Source of the DNA: a virus
DNA: 44,635 nucleotides
Virus record (IMG/VR): IMGVR_UViG_3300044733_002212
Coordinates: 1 to 44,635 of that record
Strand: one strand, 5' to 3'
Positions 2,881-35,834 of this stretch are shown here, piece by piece. How positions within the stretch are numbered: the stretch's first letter is position 1; each line of letters starts with the position of its first letter. The notes beneath the pieces are model-generated. The model saw only the letters and a list, made by a program, of their open reading frames with translations, was not told the origin of the DNA and did no database searches. A program made the translations under genes and the position numbers.

Positions 2881-3384
2881 CTAGCGTGGGATGTACTTGT
2901 ACTCCCAGCTCTCAGCAGGCTCCAGATGAAGCCCAATAGAAATCCGCAGTTTGTTTGGTTTGGTAGGAGTAAAGGGGCAGTGCAATAAGCTGGAATCAAA
3001 AATCACTGCCCGGTTTGGCTTGTAGTCAACTACGTCTTCCCCTACTACCAATGCCCCACCCCACTCCTCATTCCAAACAGGTGATGAGAAATGAATAAGG
3101 CTGGTATGCCCCTGGGGACCATCGATGTGCCAGTGCGAGTCAGTGCCTGCTGTTTGTCCATTCACACCAACCCTTTTCACCTTCATCGGACTGAAGTGGT
3201 TTCGAGGGATGTTGTGGTACAACAACCAGCCAAGCCTAGACTCAATGTCAGGCTTGAAGATTCGCCAAACACATGTTTTATCGTCATGACCGCTAAAGGG
3301 GGGATACTCCCAGTGCGGCCCTGACAACATCTGAAGCGCGATGTCCCAGCGTCTAGCATTTAGATAATCATCAATGATGATCAT
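2881..3384 (-). CDS. 2-oxoglutarate/Fe(II)-dependent oxygenase-like protein
   Basis: A compact 167-residue double-stranded beta-helix type protein. The metal triad is visible as H86-x-D88 (HWHID) and H135 (SSLLHCPF), with R147 (KLRISIGLHL) positioned to bind the 2-oxoglutarate carboxylate. Proteins of this class hydroxylate protein side chains or small molecules. Its start overlaps the stop of the next oxygenase by ATGA, and it is the last gene before the capsid leader, so it is made with scaffold and portal. The substrate is unknown; a virion protein is a reasonable inference from position. It belongs to a different subfamily from the three longer oxygenase-like proteins in the window. Confidence 0.8.
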   Translation of the reverse strand: MIIIDDYLNARRWDIALQMLSGPHWEYPPFSGHDDKTCVWRIFKPDIESRLGWLLYHNIPRNHFSPMKVKRVGVNGQTAGTDSHWHIDGPQGHTSLIHFSSPVWNEEWGGALVVGEDVVDYKPNRAVIFDSSLLHCPFTPTKPNKLRISIGLHLEPAESWEYKYIPR

Positions 3385-4013
3385 ATCTTGATGTAGTGGG
3401 TCATCTTTACTGTGTCAATAACTCGAGCCTCAATCACGAAGAAACGCTTCAAACGCTTCCCTTCGTATGGATCGGAGTTATGGATTAGGTTCGATGGGTG
3501 GACAACGAACATCCCCGTTTGAGGGAGAAGCGTATGAACCATCGTCCAGTTCTGCCTTCGTGACTTACCATTTGGGTTCGGGTCCTGCAGCTGTAGGCGG
3601 CCCATCGGGAACTTGTCATCCGAACCCTCTTTTTCGTTCTTGTCGAGATCCAGATAGTAGACACACACATAATGTGAGTCTTTATGGTTATGAGGCTTAG
3701 CTCGTTCACCAGGCTCCATCTTGCGGCAGACGCAGAGGAACTCAATGTCATACACGTCAGGCTCAAGATACTGATCAATGTGCATCATTGAGCGGACGCG
3801 AGTCTTGGCAAATTCCTTAAGCTTTTGTACAGCCGGATCCTCTTCAACAAAGAAGTTATAGCCAGGACGCTGAGGGTCCAGAATATCGATCACATGATCG
3901 TACCGTTGATAGTACTGCTCATGGAGCTCGATCAGCTTTTGCTTCTCTTCGTCCTCAAGAACTAGGTAGTCTTCCAGTACGTGTGTGGGCCACAGCGTAT
4001 GGAGTTTCGTCAC
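3381..4013 (-). CDS. 2OG-Fe(II) oxygenase-like protein, PF13759-like
   Basis: A 210-residue protein with H108-x-H110 (PHNHKDSHY) followed by a YVCVYYLDLD strand, and a distal H178 in VVHPSNLIHNS with basic residues after it (KRLKRF). This is the layout of the phage PF13759-type oxygenase family. It is clearly paralogous to the proteins at 30923-31558 and 29008-29589, sharing the HxH, YY-L and HPs..vH blocks. It overlaps the scaffold gene and the next oxygenase by 4 bases each, so all three are translationally coupled. The substrate is not known; capsid, portal or scaffold are candidates. Confidence 0.78.
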   Translation of the reverse strand: MTKLHTLWPTHVLEDYLVLEDEEKQKLIELHEQYYQRYDHVIDILDPQRPGYNFFVEEDPAVQKLKEFAKTRVRSMMHIDQYLEPDVYDIEFLCVCRKMEPGERAKPHNHKDSHYVCVYYLDLDKNEKEGSDDKFPMGRLQLQDPNPNGKSRRQNWTMVHTLLPQTGMFVVHPSNLIHNSDPYEGKRLKRFFVIEARVIDTVKMTHYIKI

Positions 4014-16816: not shown

Positions 16817-17659
16817 TCAGAGCGAACTAATCGCGCTCTTGCAGGCCTCATCAGTGGCCTTTACATAACGTAACGATGTCTCCACATCGGCATGCCCCAT
16901 CAGCTCCATGATCGTGCGGGGGTGGGTGGTCTCCCCCAGCCAGGTGCCGAAGCTGTGGCGCAGGCTGTGCCAGACATAGTCCTCCCCATAGCCGCAGAAG
17001 TCGCGAACCTTCTTGAACGCTCGGTAGAGCTGATCTTTGTTGGACCAGTCGTCTTGAAACAAGTACGGCTGCTCTAAACGGTTCTTGACAACGGGATGCA
17101 GCAGCTGGTGCAGCGGCACCGCCCGCACATTGCGGCCCTTGGTCTCCCGACCTGGCTTGCCCCCAACCCACACCACGTTGGCGGAGAAGTCGAGGTCTTC
17201 TGCTTTGAGCTTGAGCAGCTCGCCCTGGCGCACGCCTGTGTAGGCGCTGAACACCAAGGCATCGGCCAGGTCCTGCCGGTCAAACACATCAACGGCCACA
17301 AAGGCCATGCGGGCCACTTGGTCCTTGCTGAAGTAGGTCAGGCGGTGCTGACCCTCCTTGAGCCGGTCCACGCTTGGCCAAATGACATTGTGTTCTTCCG
17401 CCTTGAGCGTCCACTTGATGGCGGTCGATCCAACGGAGAGAATCCTGTTGATGGTTGAGTTGGAGCGGCGTTGATCCTGGAGCTCCGAGATGAACTCGTG
17501 CCACCAGGCCACCTTTCCCATTCTGCTGAGTGGGAGTGATCGGCCACAGTATTTGGTGATGTGACCGGCATTGATTGCGTTGGTCTTTGCTGAAGGTAGC
17601 CGCTTCCACTTGGTTTTCCAGGTGTAGTCAAAGGCTTGTCCCCAGGTGTAGCTGCTCAT
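16817..17659 (-). CDS. int: Tyrosine recombinase / phage integrase
   Basis: 280 residues. The catalytic set is complete: R144 (YTGVRQGEL), H231-x-x-R234 (HSLRHSFGTWL), H256 (LMGHADVETS) and nucleophile Y265 (SLRYVK), with a lysine in the beta hairpin near 168-174. The N-terminal 100 residues form the core-binding SAM-like domain. Integrases of this type in T7-like cyanophages are proposed to allow rare lysogeny, but integration is seldom observed. The start overlaps the MarR-like gene by ATGA, and the attP-like tRNA-Leu segment lies just downstream. Confidence 0.95.
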   Translation of the reverse strand: MSSYTWGQAFDYTWKTKWKRLPSAKTNAINAGHITKYCGRSLPLSRMGKVAWWHEFISELQDQRRSNSTINRILSVGSTAIKWTLKAEEHNVIWPSVDRLKEGQHRLTYFSKDQVARMAFVAVDVFDRQDLADALVFSAYTGVRQGELLKLKAEDLDFSANVVWVGGKPGRETKGRNVRAVPLHQLLHPVVKNRLEQPYLFQDDWSNKDQLYRAFKKVRDFCGYGEDYVWHSLRHSFGTWLGETTHPRTIMELMGHADVETSLRYVKATDEACKSAISSL

Positions 17660-23606: not shown

Positions 23607-24233
23607 TCACCCCCACATGGCCTTACAGACGCCTGGGAGGGCCTCATAGAGACGGCTCTTACACCTAAGGGCGATCTCCTTGTGTTCGACCTGGGTGCCG
23701 TTAGCGGTCCTGAGGTCGATGTAATGGAGCCACGACCGCACACTCCCAGCCATGTACAGGCGGGTAGGCGTACAGAGGGGGAGGAGTTCACGAGCACACT
23801 CCTTCGCCACACCGAGCTCTAGGAGGTTCTGGTAGGCCTTAAAGGAGGTAACCAGCACATCAGCGGCGATGGCTTGGCAGTGATCAAGGGTGTCAGCACT
23901 GAGATCATCAATGCTGTTCTGACGGTTCTTGGTGTCTTGCCTACGGAAGGTAGGAAGCTCAGGCCTAAGGGTTACCTCGGCATACCGCTGAGAGAACTCT
24001 TGGAAGGAGAAGCTTCGATGCCGAAGGATCTGAGCGGCAATGGAGCGGGTGGTGTTGATCTCCATCACCACATGAGCCATCTCGAAAGGAGACCAGTGCT
24101 TATGGGTAATGAGGTATCGAATCAGTCTCTCACTGTCAGGGTTGTCCTGGTTGACGGGATTGGATACCCGTGCACAGTAAGCAATAAGCTCTTCTGCTTT
24201 AGGAGAGACTGAGATGATCTTTACATCAGTCAT
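23607..24233 (-). CDS. thyX: Flavin-dependent thymidylate synthase
   Basis: 208 residues with the ThyX signature R71-H-R73-x7-S81 (RHRSFSFQEFS) followed by QRYAEV, and the second conserved region ELLPLCTPTRLYMAGSVRSW. It makes dTMP from dUMP with folate and FAD, feeding phage DNA synthesis together with the ribonucleotide reductase. In this phage it lies after terL, at the late end. Other T7-like cyanophages carry auxiliary metabolic genes such as talC at this place, so it is a usual site for cargo. An A/T-rich upstream stretch probably holds its promoter. Confidence 0.96.
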   Translation of the reverse strand: MTDVKIISVSPKAEELIAYCARVSNPVNQDNPDSERLIRYLITHKHWSPFEMAHVVMEINTTRSIAAQILRHRSFSFQEFSQRYAEVTLRPELPTFRRQDTKNRQNSIDDLSADTLDHCQAIAADVLVTSFKAYQNLLELGVAKECARELLPLCTPTRLYMAGSVRSWLHYIDLRTANGTQVEHKEIALRCKSRLYEALPGVCKAMWG

Positions 24234-28061: not shown

Positions 28062-28295
28062 CTAGTGTTGCTTGAACACAATCTGATCAAGCTTGTTCTC
28101 AATGCGGATCATGTGATCTTCCATCTTGGCAAGCGCACCGGCTAACTCTTCTTTTGGTACATAGCGTTCAGCCATGCGGAGTTCAACTCGGTCCATGCGC
28201 TTGTCAACTTCCATGATCCTGTTGTTAAGTCGTGTATTGATGGCTACGAGGCCCGTAAACGCCGCAACGGCAGCGGAGATAATTGCTTCAATCAT
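28062..28295 (-). CDS. Small membrane-anchored coiled-coil protein
   Basis: 77 residues. One N-terminal hydrophobic segment (IEAIISAAVAAFTGLVAI) is followed by a heptad-like charged helix (IMEVDKRMDRVELRMAER; KMEDHMIRIENKLDQIV). It is coupled to the C39-like protease gene by ATGA. This architecture and position suit a lysis-cassette protein (holin-like, or an i-spanin analogue like T7 gp18.5). The specific role is inference. Confidence 0.65.
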   Translation of the reverse strand: MIEAIISAAVAAFTGLVAINTRLNNRIMEVDKRMDRVELRMAERYVPKEELAGALAKMEDHMIRIENKLDQIVFKQH

Positions 28296-28837
28296 TTGGA
28301 TCTAAATGTCATAAACCATCCAGAACCATCACCTTCTACCGCCCATCGGCGCATCCAGTTAGTCCATGTGTACTTGACTTGGTAACCTCCATGCCCACGG
28401 CTGACATACCCTCCAGCGACGTTGTTCATCTCCCCGAAAGGATCATGAAAAACACCGTGGAGTCCGTCATCTCCAATTAGCAACATCCAATGCCCACCAC
28501 CCTGCGGCTTTGACACAGGGCCTTTATGGAGAACACCAGTCGCGACTGGATAGCCTTTCTTTAGCTCAGACAGCAGTGCGGAGCGAGTACCATTCTGATA
28601 GAAACAAGCAAGCACTCCATAGTCGGAACATGCCCGCAGGTGCGAGGTGTACTGGGTAGTGTCCCCGTATTTCAATACAGTCTTTAAGTAATCATCATCA
28701 GCATTACTGCCTTTGAGGGCATCAGGCTGGAGATACTTGATGGCCATAGCGCACGTAGAGCTAAAGCACATCCGATCTCCATGCCTGGTAGCACTATCGG
28801 TTTGCGAGTAATACTGCTTTACGGGAAGCAGCACCAT
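28292..28837 (-). CDS. Peptidase C39-like cysteine protease
   Basis: 181 residues with a papain-like order: glutamine near residues 8-12 (VKQYYSQTD), catalytic C29 (FSSTCAMAIKYL), H116 (GGGHWMLLIGDD) and D132 (VFHDPFGE). This is the C39_2 fold used by bacterial and phage peptide hydrolases. It could be an endolysin cutting peptide cross-links, or a maturation protease. Neighbours on both sides have hydrophobic segments, which favours a lysis role. There is no signal peptide. Secure as a fold prediction, less so as function. Confidence 0.72.
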   Translation of the reverse strand: MVLLPVKQYYSQTDSATRHGDRMCFSSTCAMAIKYLQPDALKGSNADDDYLKTVLKYGDTTQYTSHLRACSDYGVLACFYQNGTRSALLSELKKGYPVATGVLHKGPVSKPQGGGHWMLLIGDDGLHGVFHDPFGEMNNVAGGYVSRGHGGYQVKYTWTNWMRRWAVEGDGSGWFMTFRSK

Positions 28838-28841
28838 CGCT

Positions 28842-29042
28842 TCAACCCTTAAAGATATTCTTGATTTGTTGAATCTTGTCGTCTTCCTTGCGAACCACCT
28901 TCAGGTAGGTCACGAGGGAAAGCAGCACCTGAGCAATGCTGTTTTCCTTCAGCTTGCTGGCGCCGACAACTTCAGAACCCAGAAACAGGGCGAAGAAAAC
29001 GAGGGCCTCATACGAGACCTTCAGGCCGAATAGAGTAATCAT
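28842..29042 (-). CDS. Small membrane protein, holin candidate
   Basis: 66 residues from ATG 29042. A longer start at 29144 would lie deep inside the oxygenase gene and is less likely. It has one hydrophobic segment (VSYEALVFFALFLGSEVVG) and a charged C-terminus (VVRKEDDKIQQIKNIFKG). The LFLGSEVVGASKLKENS segment resembles a short protein widespread in cyanophages. It overlaps the upstream oxygenase gene by 35 bases and is followed by the C39-like protease. A holin role is inference. Confidence 0.65.
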   Translation of the reverse strand: MITLFGLKVSYEALVFFALFLGSEVVGASKLKENSIAQVLLSLVTYLKVVRKEDDKIQQIKNIFKG

Positions 29043-29589
29043 TGTAATTGGGATTGAATGAGGTGAAATCTGTAGCGAAGCAGAGACGCTCTTCGTTGGT
29101 GTTATTAGGAAGAGTGCTATGCACAATGTGGCCCGGATGAACAACCATCATTCCGGGGTATGGGCTGATCCGTTTAAATACATTCCCACCAGAACCTGTT
29201 TGTGGGTCTTCATAAGCGCACCACATGGACCCTGCTGCGGGATCTTGGATTAGCAAGTCACCAGAGCCAGGGGGAACCTTGAGGTAGTAGATAGCAACCA
29301 ACAGGTCCCATGGGTGAGTGTGAGGTGTAACCGCGAAATTTCCGCGCTGCGCTTGTAGCCAACCGCGCTTAACCTTGAAGGTTTCTGGCCTCCCCACAGT
29401 GGTCATCACCTCGTTAGCTCGACTCTCAAAACAAGAGGCAAGGAGCTTGAAGCCTGGAGTATTAACAAGCCTCCAGGCGTTATCGGTTGTAGCCGGTGTG
29501 GTTAGGTGAGTCCACTCCTCTAAGCACTGATCCAGCAACTCACTATGATCAAACACCCCAACAGGTGTCGGAAATAAAAGGTGAATCAT
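29008..29589 (-). CDS. 2OG-Fe(II) oxygenase-like protein, last gene of the modification cassette
   Basis: 193 residues. The metal site is seen as H90-x-H92-x2-D95 (TPHTHPWDLLVAIYYL) with distal H157 (VVHPGHIVHSTLPNN) and R168 (ERLCFATDF). The PPGSGDLLIQDP turn is typical of PF13759-like oxygenases. It overlaps the radical SAM gene by ATGA, so both are made together. It is a paralogue of the proteins at 30923-31558 and 3381-4013. Expected chemistry is Fe(II)- and 2-oxoglutarate-dependent hydroxylation. Its target is not known; fibre or other tail proteins encoded just upstream are the prime candidates. Confidence 0.82.
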   Translation of the reverse strand: MIHLLFPTPVGVFDHSELLDQCLEEWTHLTTPATTDNAWRLVNTPGFKLLASCFESRANEVMTTVGRPETFKVKRGWLQAQRGNFAVTPHTHPWDLLVAIYYLKVPPGSGDLLIQDPAAGSMWCAYEDPQTGSGGNVFKRISPYPGMMVVHPGHIVHSTLPNNTNEERLCFATDFTSFNPNYNDYSIRPEGLV

Positions 29590-30923
29590 GCAGGAATAAG
29601 CTCAACAGGGCGCAGACCAAATGGGTCCTGACGCTCCGGTCGAATATCTCCAACAATATTGGTAAGAATTAGACCAGTGGCGATAAAGAGTGCTTCAGCG
29701 AAGAAAGCCACATGGTCGAAGTAAGCATTATTACAGCTGACCTCGAACAACTCGCCTTGCAGGAACATGCAAGATCCCATGCAGCCTTGAAGCATGGGGC
29801 ACCCAGCACACTCAGCTCGGTGCTTCCAATGCGTAGCTGTATTGAGCTTGACATTCTCCATATCAAGCATATGACCAATCTTATGGCTTTGACCGTTGCC
29901 GGCAAAAGCCACTTCGGAGGTGTTCTGACAAGTCAGGACATTGCCTCGCAGGTCAACAGCAATTTGATCCTCACTGTCCATGGAGCATTTCTGGCCGAGA
30001 ACACGAGCTGGACGAAGCTTTTTCCATGAATCCAGCCAGGTTGAAAGCCGAAACTGCAACACATCAAAATTCCTAAGAATGTCACTGTTGTGCATCTCGG
30101 CGAAACCTTGGTTCGCAAACTTCTGGTACTCCTCGGGGCGTAGAGACATACTCTTACCACCTTCGTCATAGGCATCAACCATGCCACCCTCACCCAGCGA
30201 CACATCAGGATTGCCAGTAAGTTCCCGGAAGAAATTAGCAGCTGCAACCCGCGACGTATTTAGACGGTTGAGCATAGGGTTGAAGGACATCCGTCCTACC
30301 CTTCCCATCTTCTCGTAAAGATAAAGCCAGACTTCTTTCTTAGAAGGGATGGTAAGAGGGTCAGGGCCCCGAACAGCTTGCCCAGGTCCATCATGAGAAA
30401 TAGCCATGCTGAATCCCAGGTCATAAAGCCAATCAACCCATTCCTTGGTGAGCAGTGATCCGTTTGTGATGACGGACATCCGAATGTTTGGATAAGCTGC
30501 ACGGATGCGCTCGGCCAATGGCTTGAACGTCTTTGCATATACCAGTGGCTCTCCACCCCAGAATTCAATCTTGCGACCCAGACCTCCTTCCGGTGGCTTA
30601 AACCAGGAGGTAAGGCTGGTCATGAATTCATCCACAAGAGGTACAGACATCTCGTCTGCATGCGGTACAAACCGCTGTGAGCAGTATTCGCAGGAGTAGT
30701 TACAGCTCAAGCCCATCTGGATCTTGATCATCTTCGGCATGCTGCTCTTGCCAAGCGGTGTTTGCTCGGACACTGCAGCTACAGAACCGCCAAATTGCTG
30801 GGGTTCTACAGCCACAACAAACTCGCCCGCTTCATTACGCAGCTCGCTCGTTTGGTTGTTGTAGTAGAGCTTATGCTCCTTCTTGGTGGCAGGATCTTGG
30901 AGGTGAAGAGTGAAGGTGGACAT
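29586..30923 (-). CDS. Radical SAM/SPASM protein (anSME- or peptide-maturase-like)
   Basis: 445 residues. The radical SAM [4Fe-4S] motif is C74-x3-C78-x2-C81 (CNYSCEYC), followed by the GGEP motif at 123-126 (EFWGGEPLV) and a VITNGSLLT strand. The SPASM domain is complete: C313-x13-G-x4-C332, then C372-x2-C375-x5-C381-x3-C385 and C397, enough for two auxiliary clusters. The first 60 residues form a separate small domain, possibly a substrate-binding region. Family members mature sulfatases (formylglycine) or ribosomal peptides (thioether and C-C links). It is sandwiched with one- and four-base overlaps between two oxygenase-like genes in the tail fibre operon. No peptide precursor is adjacent except the Cys-rich fibre. 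Confidence 0.93.
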   Translation of the reverse strand: MSTFTLHLQDPATKKEHKLYYNNQTSELRNEAGEFVVAVEPQQFGGSVAAVSEQTPLGKSSMPKMIKIQMGLSCNYSCEYCSQRFVPHADEMSVPLVDEFMTSLTSWFKPPEGGLGRKIEFWGGEPLVYAKTFKPLAERIRAAYPNIRMSVITNGSLLTKEWVDWLYDLGFSMAISHDGPGQAVRGPDPLTIPSKKEVWLYLYEKMGRVGRMSFNPMLNRLNTSRVAAANFFRELTGNPDVSLGEGGMVDAYDEGGKSMSLRPEEYQKFANQGFAEMHNSDILRNFDVLQFRLSTWLDSWKKLRPARVLGQKCSMDSEDQIAVDLRGNVLTCQNTSEVAFAGNGQSHKIGHMLDMENVKLNTATHWKHRAECAGCPMLQGCMGSCMFLQGELFEVSCNNAYFDHVAFFAEALFIATGLILTNIVGDIRPERQDPFGLRPVELIPA

Positions 30924-31558
30924 TACAGAAGTTCAAAGTTTGGCATTTGGATTTGTTCTCGGAGCCTCATATTGGCAACAACTAATACGCGATCTCTCTC
31001 GCCCTGATATGCCTCACTTTCGTGGAAGACATGGGATGGGTGAATGATTAACATCCCTGGATGTGGCGAGATAATATGATTCTGCGTATGGTTGAATGCT
31101 CTTGAGCGGTAGCTAACCGGATCAATGACCATAAAGCGACCACCGGCATCTCGCATCACTGCAGGATCACCAGAGTCAGTTACATCGAGGTCGGCATAAA
31201 AAACTGCGACATAGTCACAGCCACGATGGCAGTGGACCTTTGATCGCTCGCCCTTTTTCATGACACGGGCAAACATGAAGGTGTCGATGCCTACTGTGTG
31301 TGATTCAGGGTGGCCCTCTACCTGTAAATAAGCCTTCATTCTCTGATGAAGTAACTTACGGTAGGCTTGAACACCAGGGCAAGGAGACCGCAACATGCAG
31401 TACATCTCCCTGGTGTTCATAAGCTGCTCTGGTAAATAACTATTCTGCGAGAAGTAGTTCTTTGCGGTGGATATAAGTGCTTTATGATTGTGATTAGTTA
31501 GCTCTGGCAGTAAGTTGTCAACACCAATATTGACAGGCCAAAGCTGTCTAATTTGCAT
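30923..31558 (-). CDS. 2OG-Fe(II) oxygenase-like protein in the fibre operon
   Basis: 211 residues with H109-x-H111 and D115 (VHCHRGCDYVAVFYADLD), and distal H179 (IIHPSHVFHESEAYQGER) with R188/R190 as possible 2-oxoglutarate ligands. It matches the protein at 3381-4013 in length, motif spacing and flanking words, so one probably arose by duplication. It overlaps the upstream beta-rich gene and the radical SAM gene by one base each (TAATG). The substrate is unknown; its placement points to a tail protein. Confidence 0.8.
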   Translation of the reverse strand: MQIRQLWPVNIGVDNLLPELTNHNHKALISTAKNYFSQNSYLPEQLMNTREMYCMLRSPCPGVQAYRKLLHQRMKAYLQVEGHPESHTVGIDTFMFARVMKKGERSKVHCHRGCDYVAVFYADLDVTDSGDPAVMRDAGGRFMVIDPVSYRSRAFNHTQNHIISPHPGMLIIHPSHVFHESEAYQGERDRVLVVANMRLREQIQMPNFELL

Positions 31559-32271
31559 TAGGTAAGGTGAATTAAGACTTCGGATTCGCCAGTCCAGTAC
31601 TTATAGCCAGCCTTGACCTTAATGACCTCTCCAGGCAGCAGCGATTCGGTCTTGAGCAAAACGATGCCAGAGGTCGTAATTCTGGTACGCGCAAGCATAC
31701 CGCTAAAAGTCTCTAGATAAATCGTAGTGCCAGGAATATGCTGTTGAATTGAGAGTTCAACGTCCTTACCAGCAGTTACTTCTGAGGGTGCAGAGATTGA
31801 GACGGACTGGGTAGATGTTACCTCAGAGACGGTATCGAGTTCTTGAATAACATCAAGACTAGATACATCAAGGTTGCCATCATCAAAGACAAAGATTGAG
31901 ATATTCTCGGTTGAGCTGGTTTTAGCTGGGGTCCAAATTAAAGCCAATCGCAAGAGATCATCTTTAAACGCCCTTGGATTTGACTTAGTAAAGAAGGTTT
32001 GCGTGATGACCTGCTCTACAGTGAAAGACAAATTAGTTTCAGCCTTGGAACTAATCAAGACGAAACCATTGTCTTCGCTTTTGCTGAGAATATCGTCCCA
32101 GGCAAAAGAAAACTGATTAAATTCAGACGTGACCCGCTCAGGACCTTCCCCGTCAATGAAGACAGGTACATCTAGAATGATACCTTCATTGTTAACGGTA
32201 ATTTTACCGCCCGACAGCCTGCTAGTAGACCCCGCAAAGCTTTTGCGTTTGTCAATTGTATATATTTTCAT
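31558..32271 (-). CDS. Beta-rich (Ig-like) tail-associated protein
   Basis: 237 residues without any cysteine. Strand-rich throughout, with a C-terminal region (SVSISAPSEVTAGKDVELSI, then LLPGEVIKVKAGYKYWTGES) that looks like an Ig-like or carbohydrate-binding beta sandwich. It lies 6 bases after the Cys-rich fibre gene and overlaps the oxygenase gene by one base. Probably a virion protein, perhaps an accessory of the fibre. Alternatives are a chaperone or docking protein for the modification enzymes. Confidence 0.6.
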   Translation of the reverse strand: MKIYTIDKRKSFAGSTSRLSGGKITVNNEGIILDVPVFIDGEGPERVTSEFNQFSFAWDDILSKSEDNGFVLISSKAETNLSFTVEQVITQTFFTKSNPRAFKDDLLRLALIWTPAKTSSTENISIFVFDDGNLDVSSLDVIQELDTVSEVTSTQSVSISAPSEVTAGKDVELSIQQHIPGTTIYLETFSGMLARTRITTSGIVLLKTESLLPGEVIKVKAGYKYWTGESEVLIHLT

Positions 32272-32277
32272 GGGAGA

Positions 32278-33483
32278 TTAGCAGTTACAAGCGCATGCAC
32301 AGTTCCATCTGTGACCACAGTTATAATTTCCACAAGCGCCAATATTACCACCCTGGTCTAGAAAATAAGTACCGCCACAGTTGTGACATGCGTAGTCACA
32401 ATCACCATGACAGTTGCAGGCATTCAGATTAGCCAACTGGGCATTGATGGTATTGAAAAAGTGACTGTTGTAATCAGCAGTACCAATACCAGTGACGTGG
32501 CCGTTAGAAAGGGTGATGCTGCTGATAACAGCTCCAGTACTTACACTAGCGTTGCCCTGGCTAGAGACAGTTGCGTGGCTGAGGGTAATGTTACCGCTTA
32601 GGGCACCACCGCCTGAGAGTTGTGAACCAGCACTAACTGTCCGACCTGTTGGAACAGAGGCATTCTGTGCATTGGTCTGTGCAGTATTCGCGTATCCCTG
32701 TGCAGTTGTGTTGGCACTAGAGAGAGTAGTCGAGTTAGCTGCAGTTACAAACGCTGTCGTAGCAATCTGGGTAGTGTTAGTACCTGCAGTTGCTGTAGGG
32801 GCTGTAGGAGTACCACCTAGCCCAGGCGATGTAGCAAAAACCAGCGATCCAGTGCCGGTTTCATCGGAGATAGCTGCAGCCAAGTTGGCGGAAGTGTCCG
32901 ATAGTCCGTAACCAGCAAACGTCGTTGGGTTGCTAGCGCCCGTTACACGGCCCTTAGCATCGACAGTGACAGAGCGGTATGTGCCAGCAGTTGCACCGGA
33001 AGCAGAAAGCTTCTCAGTCGTCACTGAACCATCAGCAAGGTCGCCAGTTGCAATGGTGCCATTGGCAATCATCGCGCTTGTTACCGTGCCCGTATCAGAG
33101 GTGGTGACAATGCCGGCAGGAAGCGGAGCAGTGGTTGCAGCAGTGACTTGGCCCTGTGCGTTAATGGAAAGGACAGGAACAGCTGTAGAGGCTCCGTAAT
33201 TACCAGCAGTTACGCCGGTAGAGGCCAGCTTTCCAGAAGCAATAGCTGCAGAGGCGTTGATGTCTGCATCAACAATGGTCCCATCAGCAAGATGGGTTGA
33301 AGTAACGGACCCAGCGGGGAGGTTGCTGAGGTCCTGGCGGAGCAGAGGGCGACCACCAGCCGTTGTACCGTCATGTACAACAACTGTATCTTTGGTGGTA
33401 TCAACAGTGATCTCACCCTCAGCACCAGTAAAAGTGTTGTGTTGCGTCGTAGTTCCGCGACGCAGTCTAAGAAGTTTTGCCAT
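32278..33483 (-). CDS. Second tail fibre-like protein with cysteine-rich C-terminal tip
   Basis: 401 residues. The N-terminus (AKLLRLRRGTTTQHNTFTGA) is the short fibre/hyaluronidase-type start found in phage fibres. The body is a repetitive T/A/S/G-rich beta structure with AINAQGQVT and VDAKGRVTGA modules. There is no cysteine in residues 1-355, then 11 cysteines in 356-401 (positions 356, 358, 362, 366, 369, 384, 389, 395, 397, 399, 401) plus three histidines; the last residue is cysteine. The tip could bind metal, be disulfide-linked, or be a substrate for the radical SAM and oxygenase enzymes encoded in the same operon. The gene starts 5 bases after the main fibre. Confidence 0.85.
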   Translation of the reverse strand: MAKLLRLRRGTTTQHNTFTGAEGEITVDTTKDTVVVHDGTTAGGRPLLRQDLSNLPAGSVTSTHLADGTIVDADINASAAIASGKLASTGVTAGNYGASTAVPVLSINAQGQVTAATTAPLPAGIVTTSDTGTVTSAMIANGTIATGDLADGSVTTEKLSASGATAGTYRSVTVDAKGRVTGASNPTTFAGYGLSDTSANLAAAISDETGTGSLVFATSPGLGGTPTAPTATAGTNTTQIATTAFVTAANSTTLSSANTTAQGYANTAQTNAQNASVPTGRTVSAGSQLSGGGALSGNITLSHATVSSQGNASVSTGAVISSITLSNGHVTGIGTADYNSHFFNTINAQLANLNACNCHGDCDYACHNCGGTYFLDQGGNIGACGNYNCGHRWNCACACNC

Positions 33484-33488
33484 TTCTA

Positions 33489-35834
33489 CTAAATAGTTCC
33501 GAAGTCGATCGTGAGATCAGCGCCGTCGATAACGGCAGCATTATTGATATTTTTTCCGTTGGCGTTTAGGTTGCCACCTAGAGTAGGGGTGGTATCTGAC
33601 TGGATTTGGGAAATACCAGCAGCGATAGAGCTGAAAATACTACCGTTAAAGTACTTAAGTACACTATTGACGGTGTCAAACCACAAGCGCCCCATTGTTG
33701 GAGACGTAGGCTGAGCAGCACTGATGGTATATTCTGCTGCATAGCGATTTACATCAGCTATCGAGCCACCAACATAATTGACGTTGGCAATTGAACCAGC
33801 TACCGTATTGACATTAGAGATTGCACCTGAAACCGTATTAACGCTATTAATTGACCCGGCAACAGTTGTAACATTTGCAGAAACACCAGCGACGGTATTT
33901 ACGCTGATAATGCTATTCTCAACAGTATTAATGTCAGCGATATTATCGACGATAACATTAACGTCTGCTATATTGGTCGCAACCGTTTGAATTTGGGAAA
34001 TGCTGTTACCACAGGTTTCCAAAGCTCCACCACTTTGACCCGCCAGAAGGGGGTCAGCTACGGAACCGAGGTCACTCTCAGTCGAGAGGTCGTTAGCAAC
34101 GACAGCAATATCGTTAAGGTCGGACTGGTTGGGGGTAATTGCACCCCATACATCGCCATCCCAAGCCTTGATGACCTGGGCCAGCGTGTCAAACCATAGG
34201 TCGCCAGGCTGGATGGGGGAGCTGTCGTAGCGGGTCGTAGGGGCATTAGGACCAATCTGATAAAGATCAGAGAAGTTGTTAATGTCTACAACATTGATCG
34301 CAGCAGTTTGTACTGCAGCAATACTCCCAGCAACAGTGCTGACTTCCGTAGCCTTCGGCGTAAGCCGGTGGAAGGTGTAAGTGTGAAGGGTAGCGGTGGT
34401 TTCTACAAGGACACCAAAGCCAGCAGGAAGATTGCTGGTAACCCCAGTGATAGTGACATTATTGCCGGCACCAGCACCATTAGGGATAGTGACCGTACCG
34501 CTGGAAGGGGTGTAAGAAGCACTGAGTTCTTTGATACTGATGATGGTTCCTGCACCGTCCGGGCTATTGATGTCCGGGTTAGCTGCAGGGAAGCTGGTCT
34601 CGTTGGCAATAGGCACAAAGCCGCCAACATCGTCGACCAGATCGATGATGCGCTTGTCGATAGCCGCCGTAGAGGCGATCCGCTGATCACTAGATGACCA
34701 AGTATCTCCAGAGAAGATGGTTTCGCTAGTGTCCTGACGGAAATAGCGCAGGTCTGAGGCAGAGGTCGTGAATACACTGCTGTCATTGACAGTGGCACCC
34801 AGGACCTCAGCATTAGTTACAACAGCACCGTCTGTCAGCTTTGCAAGAGCAATAGTGCCGTCAGCAATCTTGTCGTTGGTGACCGACTGATCAGCTAGTT
34901 TGCCAGTTGTGACATTAAGATCTGCGATCTTTGCCGTTGTTACGTTCTGATCGGCAATCTTTGCAGTGACAACGTTAGCGTCAAGTATCTTTGCAGTCGT
35001 GACATTGCCGTCAGCAATCTTAACCGTAGTTACATTACTGTCGGCGATCTTTGCCGTAGTAACATTCTGATCAGCAATCTTGGGCGTAGTGACGTTGCTG
35101 TCAGCAATCTTGCCTGTTGTGACATTTAGATCAGCGATCTTGGCGGTAGTGACACCGAGATCATTAATCTTTGCCGTTGTGACATTCAGGTTGGCAATCT
35201 TATCCGTCGTGACGTTGCTATCAGCAATCTTAGCTGTAGTAACGTTTTGATCAGCAATCTTTGCCGTAGTGACGTTTGAGTTGGCAATCTTCGCGGTCGT
35301 GACATTGCTGTCAGCGATCATTGAAGTTGCAACAGTCCCTACATCTCCGGTGCTAACGAGGTTGCCACTGGAGTTAGGGAGATTGAGAGTACGATCGGCA
35401 GTGGGATCACCGCCCAGCAAGCTGGTTTCGAACGCATCATCGGTTGCACCCTCAAAGATCAGGCCCTGGCCCGCTGTAAACGATAGGTTGCCGAAAAGCT
35501 CACCACCAGAACGGTCAAGCCGACGCTCAACCGTCTCCTGGGTGTTGTACAGAACTTGGTTGAAGTTCGCGTTCAGGTCTTGGGCACGAACAGTCGAGCC
35601 TGGGTAGAAAGTCGCCTTAGCCGTATCCGCATTGGTAACGCGATAGATGCGAATCTTGGTCCCGTTAGTGGGCGCAGCGTTAAACTGAACCGTAGTAGCG
35701 TTGGCGAGCGTATATGCAATTGTGTCAACACCGTCAAGGCTAACCTTGATATCGGTAGTTGCTAGGTATGGGAAGGTAAAAGAGTAGAGAACGGCAGAAC
35801 CGTTCCCTACATAGGTATTCTCAGCTAGAGCCAT
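33489..35834 (-). CDS. Main tail fibre protein (T7 gp17-like N-terminus)
   Basis: 781 residues. The first 150 match the T7 gp17 tail-attachment domain (TYVGNGSAVLYSFTFPYL; IRIYRVTNAD; AQDLNANFNQVLY). Residues 171-340 form 17 tandem decapeptides of the type NVTTAKIADS. A second region (about 600-700) has VNTVAGSI-type repeats. Two copies of a LWFDT...K..G module (about 549 and 720) suggest an internally duplicated domain. The C-terminus NANGKNINNAAVIDG is a common fibre ending. It binds the host surface; receptor specificity may be shared with the second fibre. Confidence 0.92.
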   Translation of the reverse strand: MALAENTYVGNGSAVLYSFTFPYLATTDIKVSLDGVDTIAYTLANATTVQFNAAPTNGTKIRIYRVTNADTAKATFYPGSTVRAQDLNANFNQVLYNTQETVERRLDRSGGELFGNLSFTAGQGLIFEGATDDAFETSLLGGDPTADRTLNLPNSSGNLVSTGDVGTVATSMIADSNVTTAKIANSNVTTAKIADQNVTTAKIADSNVTTDKIANLNVTTAKINDLGVTTAKIADLNVTTGKIADSNVTTPKIADQNVTTAKIADSNVTTVKIADGNVTTAKILDANVVTAKIADQNVTTAKIADLNVTTGKLADQSVTNDKIADGTIALAKLTDGAVVTNAEVLGATVNDSSVFTTSASDLRYFRQDTSETIFSGDTWSSSDQRIASTAAIDKRIIDLVDDVGGFVPIANETSFPAANPDINSPDGAGTIISIKELSASYTPSSGTVTIPNGAGAGNNVTITGVTSNLPAGFGVLVETTATLHTYTFHRLTPKATEVSTVAGSIAAVQTAAINVVDINNFSDLYQIGPNAPTTRYDSSPIQPGDLWFDTLAQVIKAWDGDVWGAITPNQSDLNDIAVVANDLSTESDLGSVADPLLAGQSGGALETCGNSISQIQTVATNIADVNVIVDNIADINTVENSIISVNTVAGVSANVTTVAGSINSVNTVSGAISNVNTVAGSIANVNYVGGSIADVNRYAAEYTISAAQPTSPTMGRLWFDTVNSVLKYFNGSIFSSIAAGISQIQSDTTPTLGGNLNANGKNINNAAVIDGADLTIDFGTI
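34815..35324 (-). repeat. Tandem 30-bp repeats encoding 17 decapeptides in the tail fibre
   Basis: About 510 bases encode repeats of consensus NVTTAKIAD(S/Q/L), with K at position 6 and I at position 7 nearly invariant. The nucleotide repeats are imperfect, with many silent changes, so they are kept by selection on protein rather than recently amplified. The unit fits a triple-stranded beta-helix or similar fibrous shaft. Confidence 0.9.

Follow-up and report, generated by a model that had tools for sequence, protein, structure and literature searches.

The DNA analysed here (the window) is a stretch of 44,635 nt from a virus, with a GC content of about 52%; no tRNA genes were found in these 44,635 nt. 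Its large terminase subunit shares 81.5% identity with those of the Synechococcus phages S-CBP42 and P60 and 79.3% with that of Syn5. This means that the window is from a T7-like cyanopodovirus, that is, a virus of marine cyanobacteria. In S-CBP42, the internal virion protein gene is followed by the tail fibre, one small gene, and the endolysin. The tail fibre and the endolysin of the window flank a five-gene cassette: a second fibre, a gene of 237 residues, a 2OG-Fe(II) oxygenase, a radical SAM gene, and a second 2OG-Fe(II) oxygenase, in this order. The radical SAM/Cys-tip cassette was not found in the isolate S-CBP42. The features of this region are as follows.

33489-35834, minus strand: first tail fibre, the upstream border of the cassette
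32278-33483, minus strand: candidate substrate, a tail-fibre protein of 401 residues with Mtd_N at residues 6-41 (PF18454, E 3.6e-14) and a Cys-rich C-terminus
32281-32430, minus strand: Cys-rich tip of the candidate fibre, its last 50 residues with 11 Cys, ending in NCACACNC (Cys scan)
31558-32271, minus strand: conserved partner gene, located between the fibre and the enzyme; a beta protein of 237 residues with a C-terminal Ig-like domain (residues 154-237)
30923-31558, minus strand: oxygenase-like gene of the 2OG-Fe(II) type, next to the enzyme on its upstream side (PF13759, E 3.2e-11)
29586-30923, minus strand: radical SAM/SPASM enzyme of 445 residues (ORF, profile matches, model)
29008-29589, minus strand: oxygenase-like gene of the 2OG-Fe(II) type, next to the enzyme on its downstream side (phrog_81, E 2e-24)
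28842-29144: small ORF ahead of the endolysin
28292-28837, minus strand: endolysin, the downstream border of the cassette (phrog_10051, E 1.7e-57)

The enzyme gene is part of the late module and sits between tail fibre and endolysin. The last four genes of the cassette overlap their neighbours by 1-4 bases, and the first of these four starts 6 bases past the stop codon of the fibre. The late-operon location given in an earlier note on this DNA is borne out by this position and by the overlaps. The cassette genes are probably read as one unit. A scan for promoters and terminators gave seven promoter-like sites, compared with a mean of 8.9 in shuffled sequence, that is, no enrichment.

Relatives of the partner gene were found in 22 sources. 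In VIA, its Ig-like domain resembles the invasin and intimin domains, with Z of 8.7-9.6. Among the first VIA rows for the partner were the neck protein of phage Chi and Ig domains of the invasin/intimin type (Z 8.7-9.9); SoxYZ rows were at 7.3-7.6. A role as a sulfur carrier was rejected, since SoxY and SoxZ appeared in Foldseek only at E above 0.01 and were outscored in VIA by the Ig-type folds. The partner may be a generic Ig-like domain protein, perhaps one more component of the tail, or a carrier.

Genes for 2OG oxygenases were present in 57 of 82 sources. They might hydroxylate the same virion protein or another one; this family is widespread among phages, and the connection is a weak one. 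An oxygenase-like gene of the same profile family as both cassette oxygenases is also present near the capsid genes (3381-4013). The neighbouring ORF 2881-3384 reads as another oxygenase, and it matched itself alone. Elsewhere in the window, an integrase-like gene (16817-17659) adjoins the RNA polymerase gene, an arrangement as in S-CBP42.

The radical SAM/SPASM enzyme and its relatives

The enzyme ORF spans exactly 29586-30923 and starts with ATG. The radical SAM motif CNYSCEYC is at residues 74-81. In the SPASM region, C-x13-G-x4-C is at 313-332, C-x2-C-x5-C-x3-C at 372-385, and the final Cys at 397; in other words, the seven Cys positions are 313, 332, 372, 375, 381, 385, and 397. All ten cluster cysteines (three and seven) were invariant in 68 of 68 sequences, namely the window enzyme and 67 relatives with pairwise identity below 80%. 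The protein belongs to Radical_SAM PF04055 (39.3 bits; cut-off 29.5), to the NCBIfam SPASM family TIGR04085 (30.8 bits; cut-off 27), and to PHROG 1802, "radical SAM domain-containing protein" (E 1e-59 over residues 25-403). These results agree with the earlier reading of the ORF as a complete radical SAM/SPASM enzyme with its three radical SAM and seven SPASM cysteines intact. PHROG 1802, of which the enzyme is a clear member, gives no function; the pairing with a Cys-rich tip is added here. A viperin-type antiviral enzyme was also considered and rejected: NF038283 gave 52.8 bits against a cut-off of 180, and a full SPASM region is present.

An extra N-terminal stretch of about 60 residues had been described as well, and it is real in the AlphaFold model of the enzyme (pLDDT 92.8, pTM 0.91). 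In the model, residues 1-60 contain strands only: three strands at residues 3-29 are followed by an extended stretch, and no helix is formed before residue 82. The VIA alignment to 5wgg begins at residue 1. The modelled N-terminal domain is not an obvious RiPP recognition element of the winged-helix type that binds leader peptides.

The closest solved fold was 5wgg (Z 24.7, rmsd 3.9, 359 of 445 residues aligned), and 5why was next (Z 24.1). The titles of both entries concern thioether bond formation, and the enzyme in them is presumably CteB. Further matches were ChlB (Z 21.2), anSME (20.8), TigE (19.1), SuiB (15.5), and EpeE (13.4), which we take to be enzymes of several different chemistries. 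Sequence identity between the solved enzymes and the window enzyme was about 20% at most. A close viral model in BFVD is a "Fe-S oxidoreductase" of Podoviridae sp. ctXdu7.

The checks suggested in the earlier note, namely SPASM subfamily profiles, a phylogeny, and a scan for CxPxR, were carried out. In a quick ML tree, whose long branches make the deeper joins unsafe, the window enzyme was inside a phage group, whereas eight anSME and six SCIFF maturases were separate, each with support of 100. Judged by sequence, the enzyme belongs to a phage group of SPASM enzymes apart from the sulfatase maturases. Among 369 bacterial genomes of the class of G021, it was found at E 1e-60 in one, which was the seed itself; the family appears to be rare in this class. 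The SCIFF (ranthipeptide) maturases (5wgg, 5why; TIGR03974) share with the window enzyme the best fold, the radical SAM and SPASM parts, and a Cys-rich substrate nearby. They differ in forming a separate clade and in their substrate, which is a free small peptide there and presumably the end of a virion fibre here. Of the 56 NCBIfam matches, the best 25 (down to 26 bits) did not include TIGR03974, whose cut-off is 425, so that the enzyme does not score as a SCIFF maturase. Nor does it score as a PapB ranthipeptide maturase (NF047865, 50.4 bits; cut-off 340).

It should be mentioned that the homologue in Achromobacter phage JWF is annotated as an anaerobic sulfatase maturase in KP202971. The full-length fold with SPASM is shared with anSME (4k36-4k39; Z 20.8), and the window has one CxPxR motif. 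The score against TIGR03942 was, however, only 57.3 bits (cut-off 349.45), and the enzyme was outside the anSME clade in the quick tree. The single CxPxR is in ORF 23607-24233, which is presumably ThyX; there is none in the candidate substrate. The earlier note had held that placement in a sulfatase maturase clade together with a sulfatase in the genome would speak against its reading: the enzyme was placed outside this clade, and a search of the window with PF00884 at E 10 found no sulfatase. A sulfatase maturase, which would also leave the two-way pairing described below unexplained, is hardly credible and was rejected.

The Cys-rich fibre tip

The second fibre (32278-33483) is the third gene upstream of the enzyme. 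Its N-terminal region is the major-tropism-determinant domain (PF18454), and it also matches tail proteins. Among the other 48 main ORFs of the window, none had more than five Cys in 50 residues.

The composition of the tip was derived from 34 non-redundant genes of the forward set described below, the window gene included. The middle residue of C-x-C was Asn in 101, Ala in 63, and Asp in 33 of 211 cases, with 14 others; these three residues make up 197 of the 211, compared with 21 of 67 in other parts of these loci. Other Cys spacings besides C-x-C are also seen in the tips. The last C-x-C was four residues or less from the C-terminus in 19 of the 34 genes, and in the other 15 it was followed by 95-205 residues.

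In the few cases examined, the nature of the following region varied. The gp028 protein of phage JWF has a Hint domain after the run (47.5 bits; cut-off 32.1), L010, L013, and L022 have Hint matches below the cut-off, and L018 has an S74 chaperone (22.5; cut-off 22). The domain of about 170 residues after the run in L040 gave no Pfam match. Hint and S74 domains are capable of self-cleavage, and their removal would make the Cys run the C-terminus in such relatives too.

Several variants of the run were seen. CQxCQxCQ repeats ahead of NCNCDCNCNCSDDS occur at L089:2383-2754, L109:211-582, and L167:13487-13930, and might represent a variant substrate. Genes of 67-79 residues at L095:11423-11662, L153:6394-6597, L102:2432-2635, L173:787-990, and L198:5101-5322 have a CNCNCNC run preceded by HTH and a DDY stretch, so that His and Cys occur together. 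L143 and L146 show three matches to the Cys-run motif across about 0.6 kb, which might be consecutive tip genes. The window enzyme is 100% identical (best segment) to those of L002 and L003, yet the fibre tip of the window differs at several residues. The fibre tip may be fast-evolving.

Co-occurrence of the enzyme and the Cys-rich tip

In the forward direction, an IMG/VR protein search with the enzyme gave 122 relatives, the best 80 of which were taken as loci. The strict test was the presence of a same-strand gene, at most 7 kb upstream or 4 kb downstream, having at least two C-x-C and at least four Cys in 40 residues. It was passed at 67 of these 80 loci, and at 37 of 43 when identity was limited to less than 80%; many of the loci are related, so that the counts are not independent events. 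Eleven of the 13 misses (L004, L005, L064-L067, L069, L074, L075, L077, and L081) hold a Cys-rich gene that was under the threshold or masked by an overlapping ORF. Two of these, L065 and L069, are weak, with four Cys in 50 residues mixed with His. Accordingly, a Cys-rich gene on the same strand was present in 78 of the best 80 loci, two of them weak. In L015 and L017 the enzyme was present, no Cys-rich gene was found in the surrounding region, and the CxC pattern of the contig was at noise level; counts of this short pattern are mostly noise. The same test was passed by 1 of 577 far genes on the same strand ("far" meaning a limit of 4 kb, slightly unlike the "near" window), by 6 of 249 genes on the opposite strand, and by 8 of 1061 terminase-matched ORFs (79 loci).

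To avoid circularity, a reverse search was run from the DNA motif. IMG/VR stretches reading NCNC[NTDA]CNC were chosen without the enzyme, which gave at least 120 stretches, 118 of them new; six loci (L100, L101, L115, L120, L161, and L187) are in contigs already known to hold the enzyme. The first 78 loci contained 65 in-frame ORFs, and the enzyme profile was found beside 52 of them among the matches listed, on the same strand in all 52 and at E below 1e-90 in 42. A whole-contig search found the enzyme in 7 of the remaining 13. For the other 40 loci, 39 were in frame and 28 had the enzyme profile among the matches listed, 27 of them on the same strand; the odd one, L188, is a weak enzyme match beside a chance-like ORF. 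The whole-contig search added 3 of the remaining 11. Taken together, the enzyme was in the contig for 90 of 104 in-frame genes (80 in the locus itself and 10 by whole-contig search), and on the same strand in 79 of the 80 loci with a nearby enzyme, both among the matches listed. In the tree, some of these enzymes fall on branches farther out within this broad group.

The enzyme-less 14 of 104 are of two kinds. Five (L122, L135, L166, L195, and L197) are chance-like, with non-C-terminal runs or tiny ORFs. The other nine have C-terminal runs near the downstream end of the contig, which is reached after 161-1198 bases in L130, L134, L151, L154, L163, L165, L176, and L178, and after about 2.4 kb in L194. 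Since a downstream enzyme mostly begins within 2.5 kb of the Cys-run gene, these nine weigh little.

The reverse search in cellular genomes gave 39 loci, 14 of them in frame. Seven had the enzyme: six in-frame loci (L284, L291, L303, L305, L307, and L310) and L283, whose match sits at the edge of the stretch. The eight other in-frame loci (L282, L286, L293, L298, L309, L312, L313, and L315) were without the enzyme in the stretch. They have the appearance of repeats, except that L286 and L312 resemble small RiPP-like peptides. The latter two (L286:5542-5967 and L312:95-409) are small clostridial ORFs with YNCNCNC runs, and resemble free RiPP precursors rather than fibres. L303:5879-7999, from a bacterial MAG, is a tandem pair of genes of about 345 residues, each with a YNCNCNCNCC run and with several radical SAM genes adjoining. 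Two to five consecutive radical SAM matches lie beside Cys-run genes in L095, L153, L139, L124, L125, L158, and L303 (G025:C5:27014-33649).

Loci sharing the terminase of the window were taken regardless of the enzyme (best 80 of 599), and those 30 that extended 5.1 kb or more in the upstream direction were examined closely. In 29 of them, both the enzyme and a gene with eight Cys in 50 residues were absent; in the remaining one, L229, which is the same contig as L005, both were present.

At the level of sequence, the pairing of enzyme and Cys-rich tip is strongly supported, being near one-to-one in both directions. No description of such a pairing with a fibre was found in a literature search that covered titles, the starts of abstracts, and passages of open-licence papers; absence from print is not implied. 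The earlier note had expected an active enzyme whose substrate, made late, is a virion or lysis protein. The virion part of this expectation is supported by the Cys-tipped fibre (32278-33483) and the two-way co-occurrence, and the pairing sharpens it to a candidate that the note had not named; the lysis part found no support.

A different view is that the enzyme is an auxiliary metabolic or Fe-S gene, present in a variable fibre module by location only. Viral radical SAM genes are interpreted as metabolic in passages of earlier papers (PMC5332604, PMC9301287). Position by itself, however, leaves unexplained the specific pairing with Cys runs and the joint absence in 29 of 30 syntenic loci. A metabolic gene in a hotspot is thus very improbable, and was rejected on the ground of the two-way pairing.

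Possible modification of the tip

It is quite likely that the enzyme modifies the Cys tip of the fibre from the same operon, the two being paired as enzyme and substrate. A phage-encoded RiPP-like protein maturase seems to be the best explanation of the enzyme, the chemistry being suggested by the fold. As in RiPP systems, the candidate substrate is ribosomal, is encoded near the modifying enzyme, and has conserved core residues that can be modified. The family and the reaction type are known; no description of their apparent use on a phage fibre end was found in the literature covered here.

The reaction might proceed as follows. SAM would be cleaved at the CxxxCxxC cluster to form a radical, as expected for this family when the motif is intact. 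The barrel would then take up the [N/D/A]-C repeat at the C-terminus of the fibre, the cysteines of which could meet the SPASM auxiliary clusters, as suggested by the closest folds. In the least certain step, the radical might attack a carbon of Asn, Asp, or a neighbour, and the Cys sulfur might join it as a thioether, which would lead to a knotted, rigid tip. A trailing domain such as Hint or S74 is possibly removed, judging from the architecture of the relatives, so that the modified run would be the mature C-terminus. The modified tip might then contact the host surface, in keeping with the Mtd_N and tail matches of the fibre. The cyanobacterial hosts produce oxygen, which is an awkward setting for oxygen-sensitive clusters.

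Thioether chemistry on the tip is plausible, if somewhat short of probable. The two closest folds come from work on thioether formation, and the Asn and Asp beside Cys fit the thioethers that link Cys to Asn or Asp in ranthipeptides, according to passages of PMC8326336. Ala is also common between the cysteines, which suggests that not every position is an acceptor. Since Ala, in the middle of 63 of 211 C-x-C, is without a functional group, the product might instead be an epimerised residue, a carbon-carbon cross-link, or Cys oxidised to an aldehyde. The fold matches span several chemistries (ChlB, anSME, TigE, SuiB, and EpeE), and the fold of anSME, an enzyme that forms no cross-link, is almost as similar as the best of them. 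Against the thioether evidence above, such a product on the Cys tip seems rather unlikely.

The C-x-C run could also be a metal- or cluster-binding ladder on the three-fold axis of the fibre, the enzyme doing something else or helping the loading. In a strand, the alternation places every Cys on one face, and the mixed His and Cys of the L065 and L069 tips would fit metal binding equally. A likeness is seen in the receptor-binding fibre of phage T4, where alternating metal-ligand residues of the gp37 tip (HxH motifs) bind iron, and such motifs are found in other phage fibres, as described in passages of PMC11705849. The gp37 tip differs from the present one in having His instead of Cys. To our knowledge, no dedicated enzyme serves the gp37 tip. 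A metal ladder requires no radical SAM enzyme, yet the pairing with one is near one-to-one in both directions; furthermore, the other Cys spacings in the tips do not suit it. It is therefore considered improbable.

Returning to the modified tip, it is conceivable, with some doubt, that in many tailed phages a dedicated SPASM enzyme of a largely phage-restricted group stitches the C-terminal [Asn/Asp/Ala]-Cys repeat of the receptor-binding fibre, so that a polycyclic thioether tip is formed; self-removal of Hint or S74 would follow in some of these phages. Receptor-binding tips decide which hosts can be infected, and a tip covalently cross-linked by an enzyme would be a new construction route as well as a new use of RiPP-type chemistry, here serving virion building. 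It would also account for part of the viral radical SAM genes now called metabolic, and would give a testable function to genes left open or read as auxiliary metabolism. According to passages of the respective papers, Campylobacter phages have 11-12 radical SAM genes (PMC2853527), a marine T4-like genome has 12 (PMC5332604), pelagimyophages carry radical SAM cassettes in the host-recognition cluster (PMC7029224), and 261 "ahbD" calls were made in Baltic Sea viruses (PMC9301287).

The pairing provides a simple sequence rule by which enzyme and substrate can be located together, and Achromobacter phage JWF (NC_029075) is a cultured phage with both. Its gp030 is 43.6% identical to the window enzyme, and gp028, two genes upstream, is a tail-fibre-like protein with NCNCDCNCNCSC. 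The Hint domain follows the run in gp028, whereas the run itself is the C-terminus in the window.
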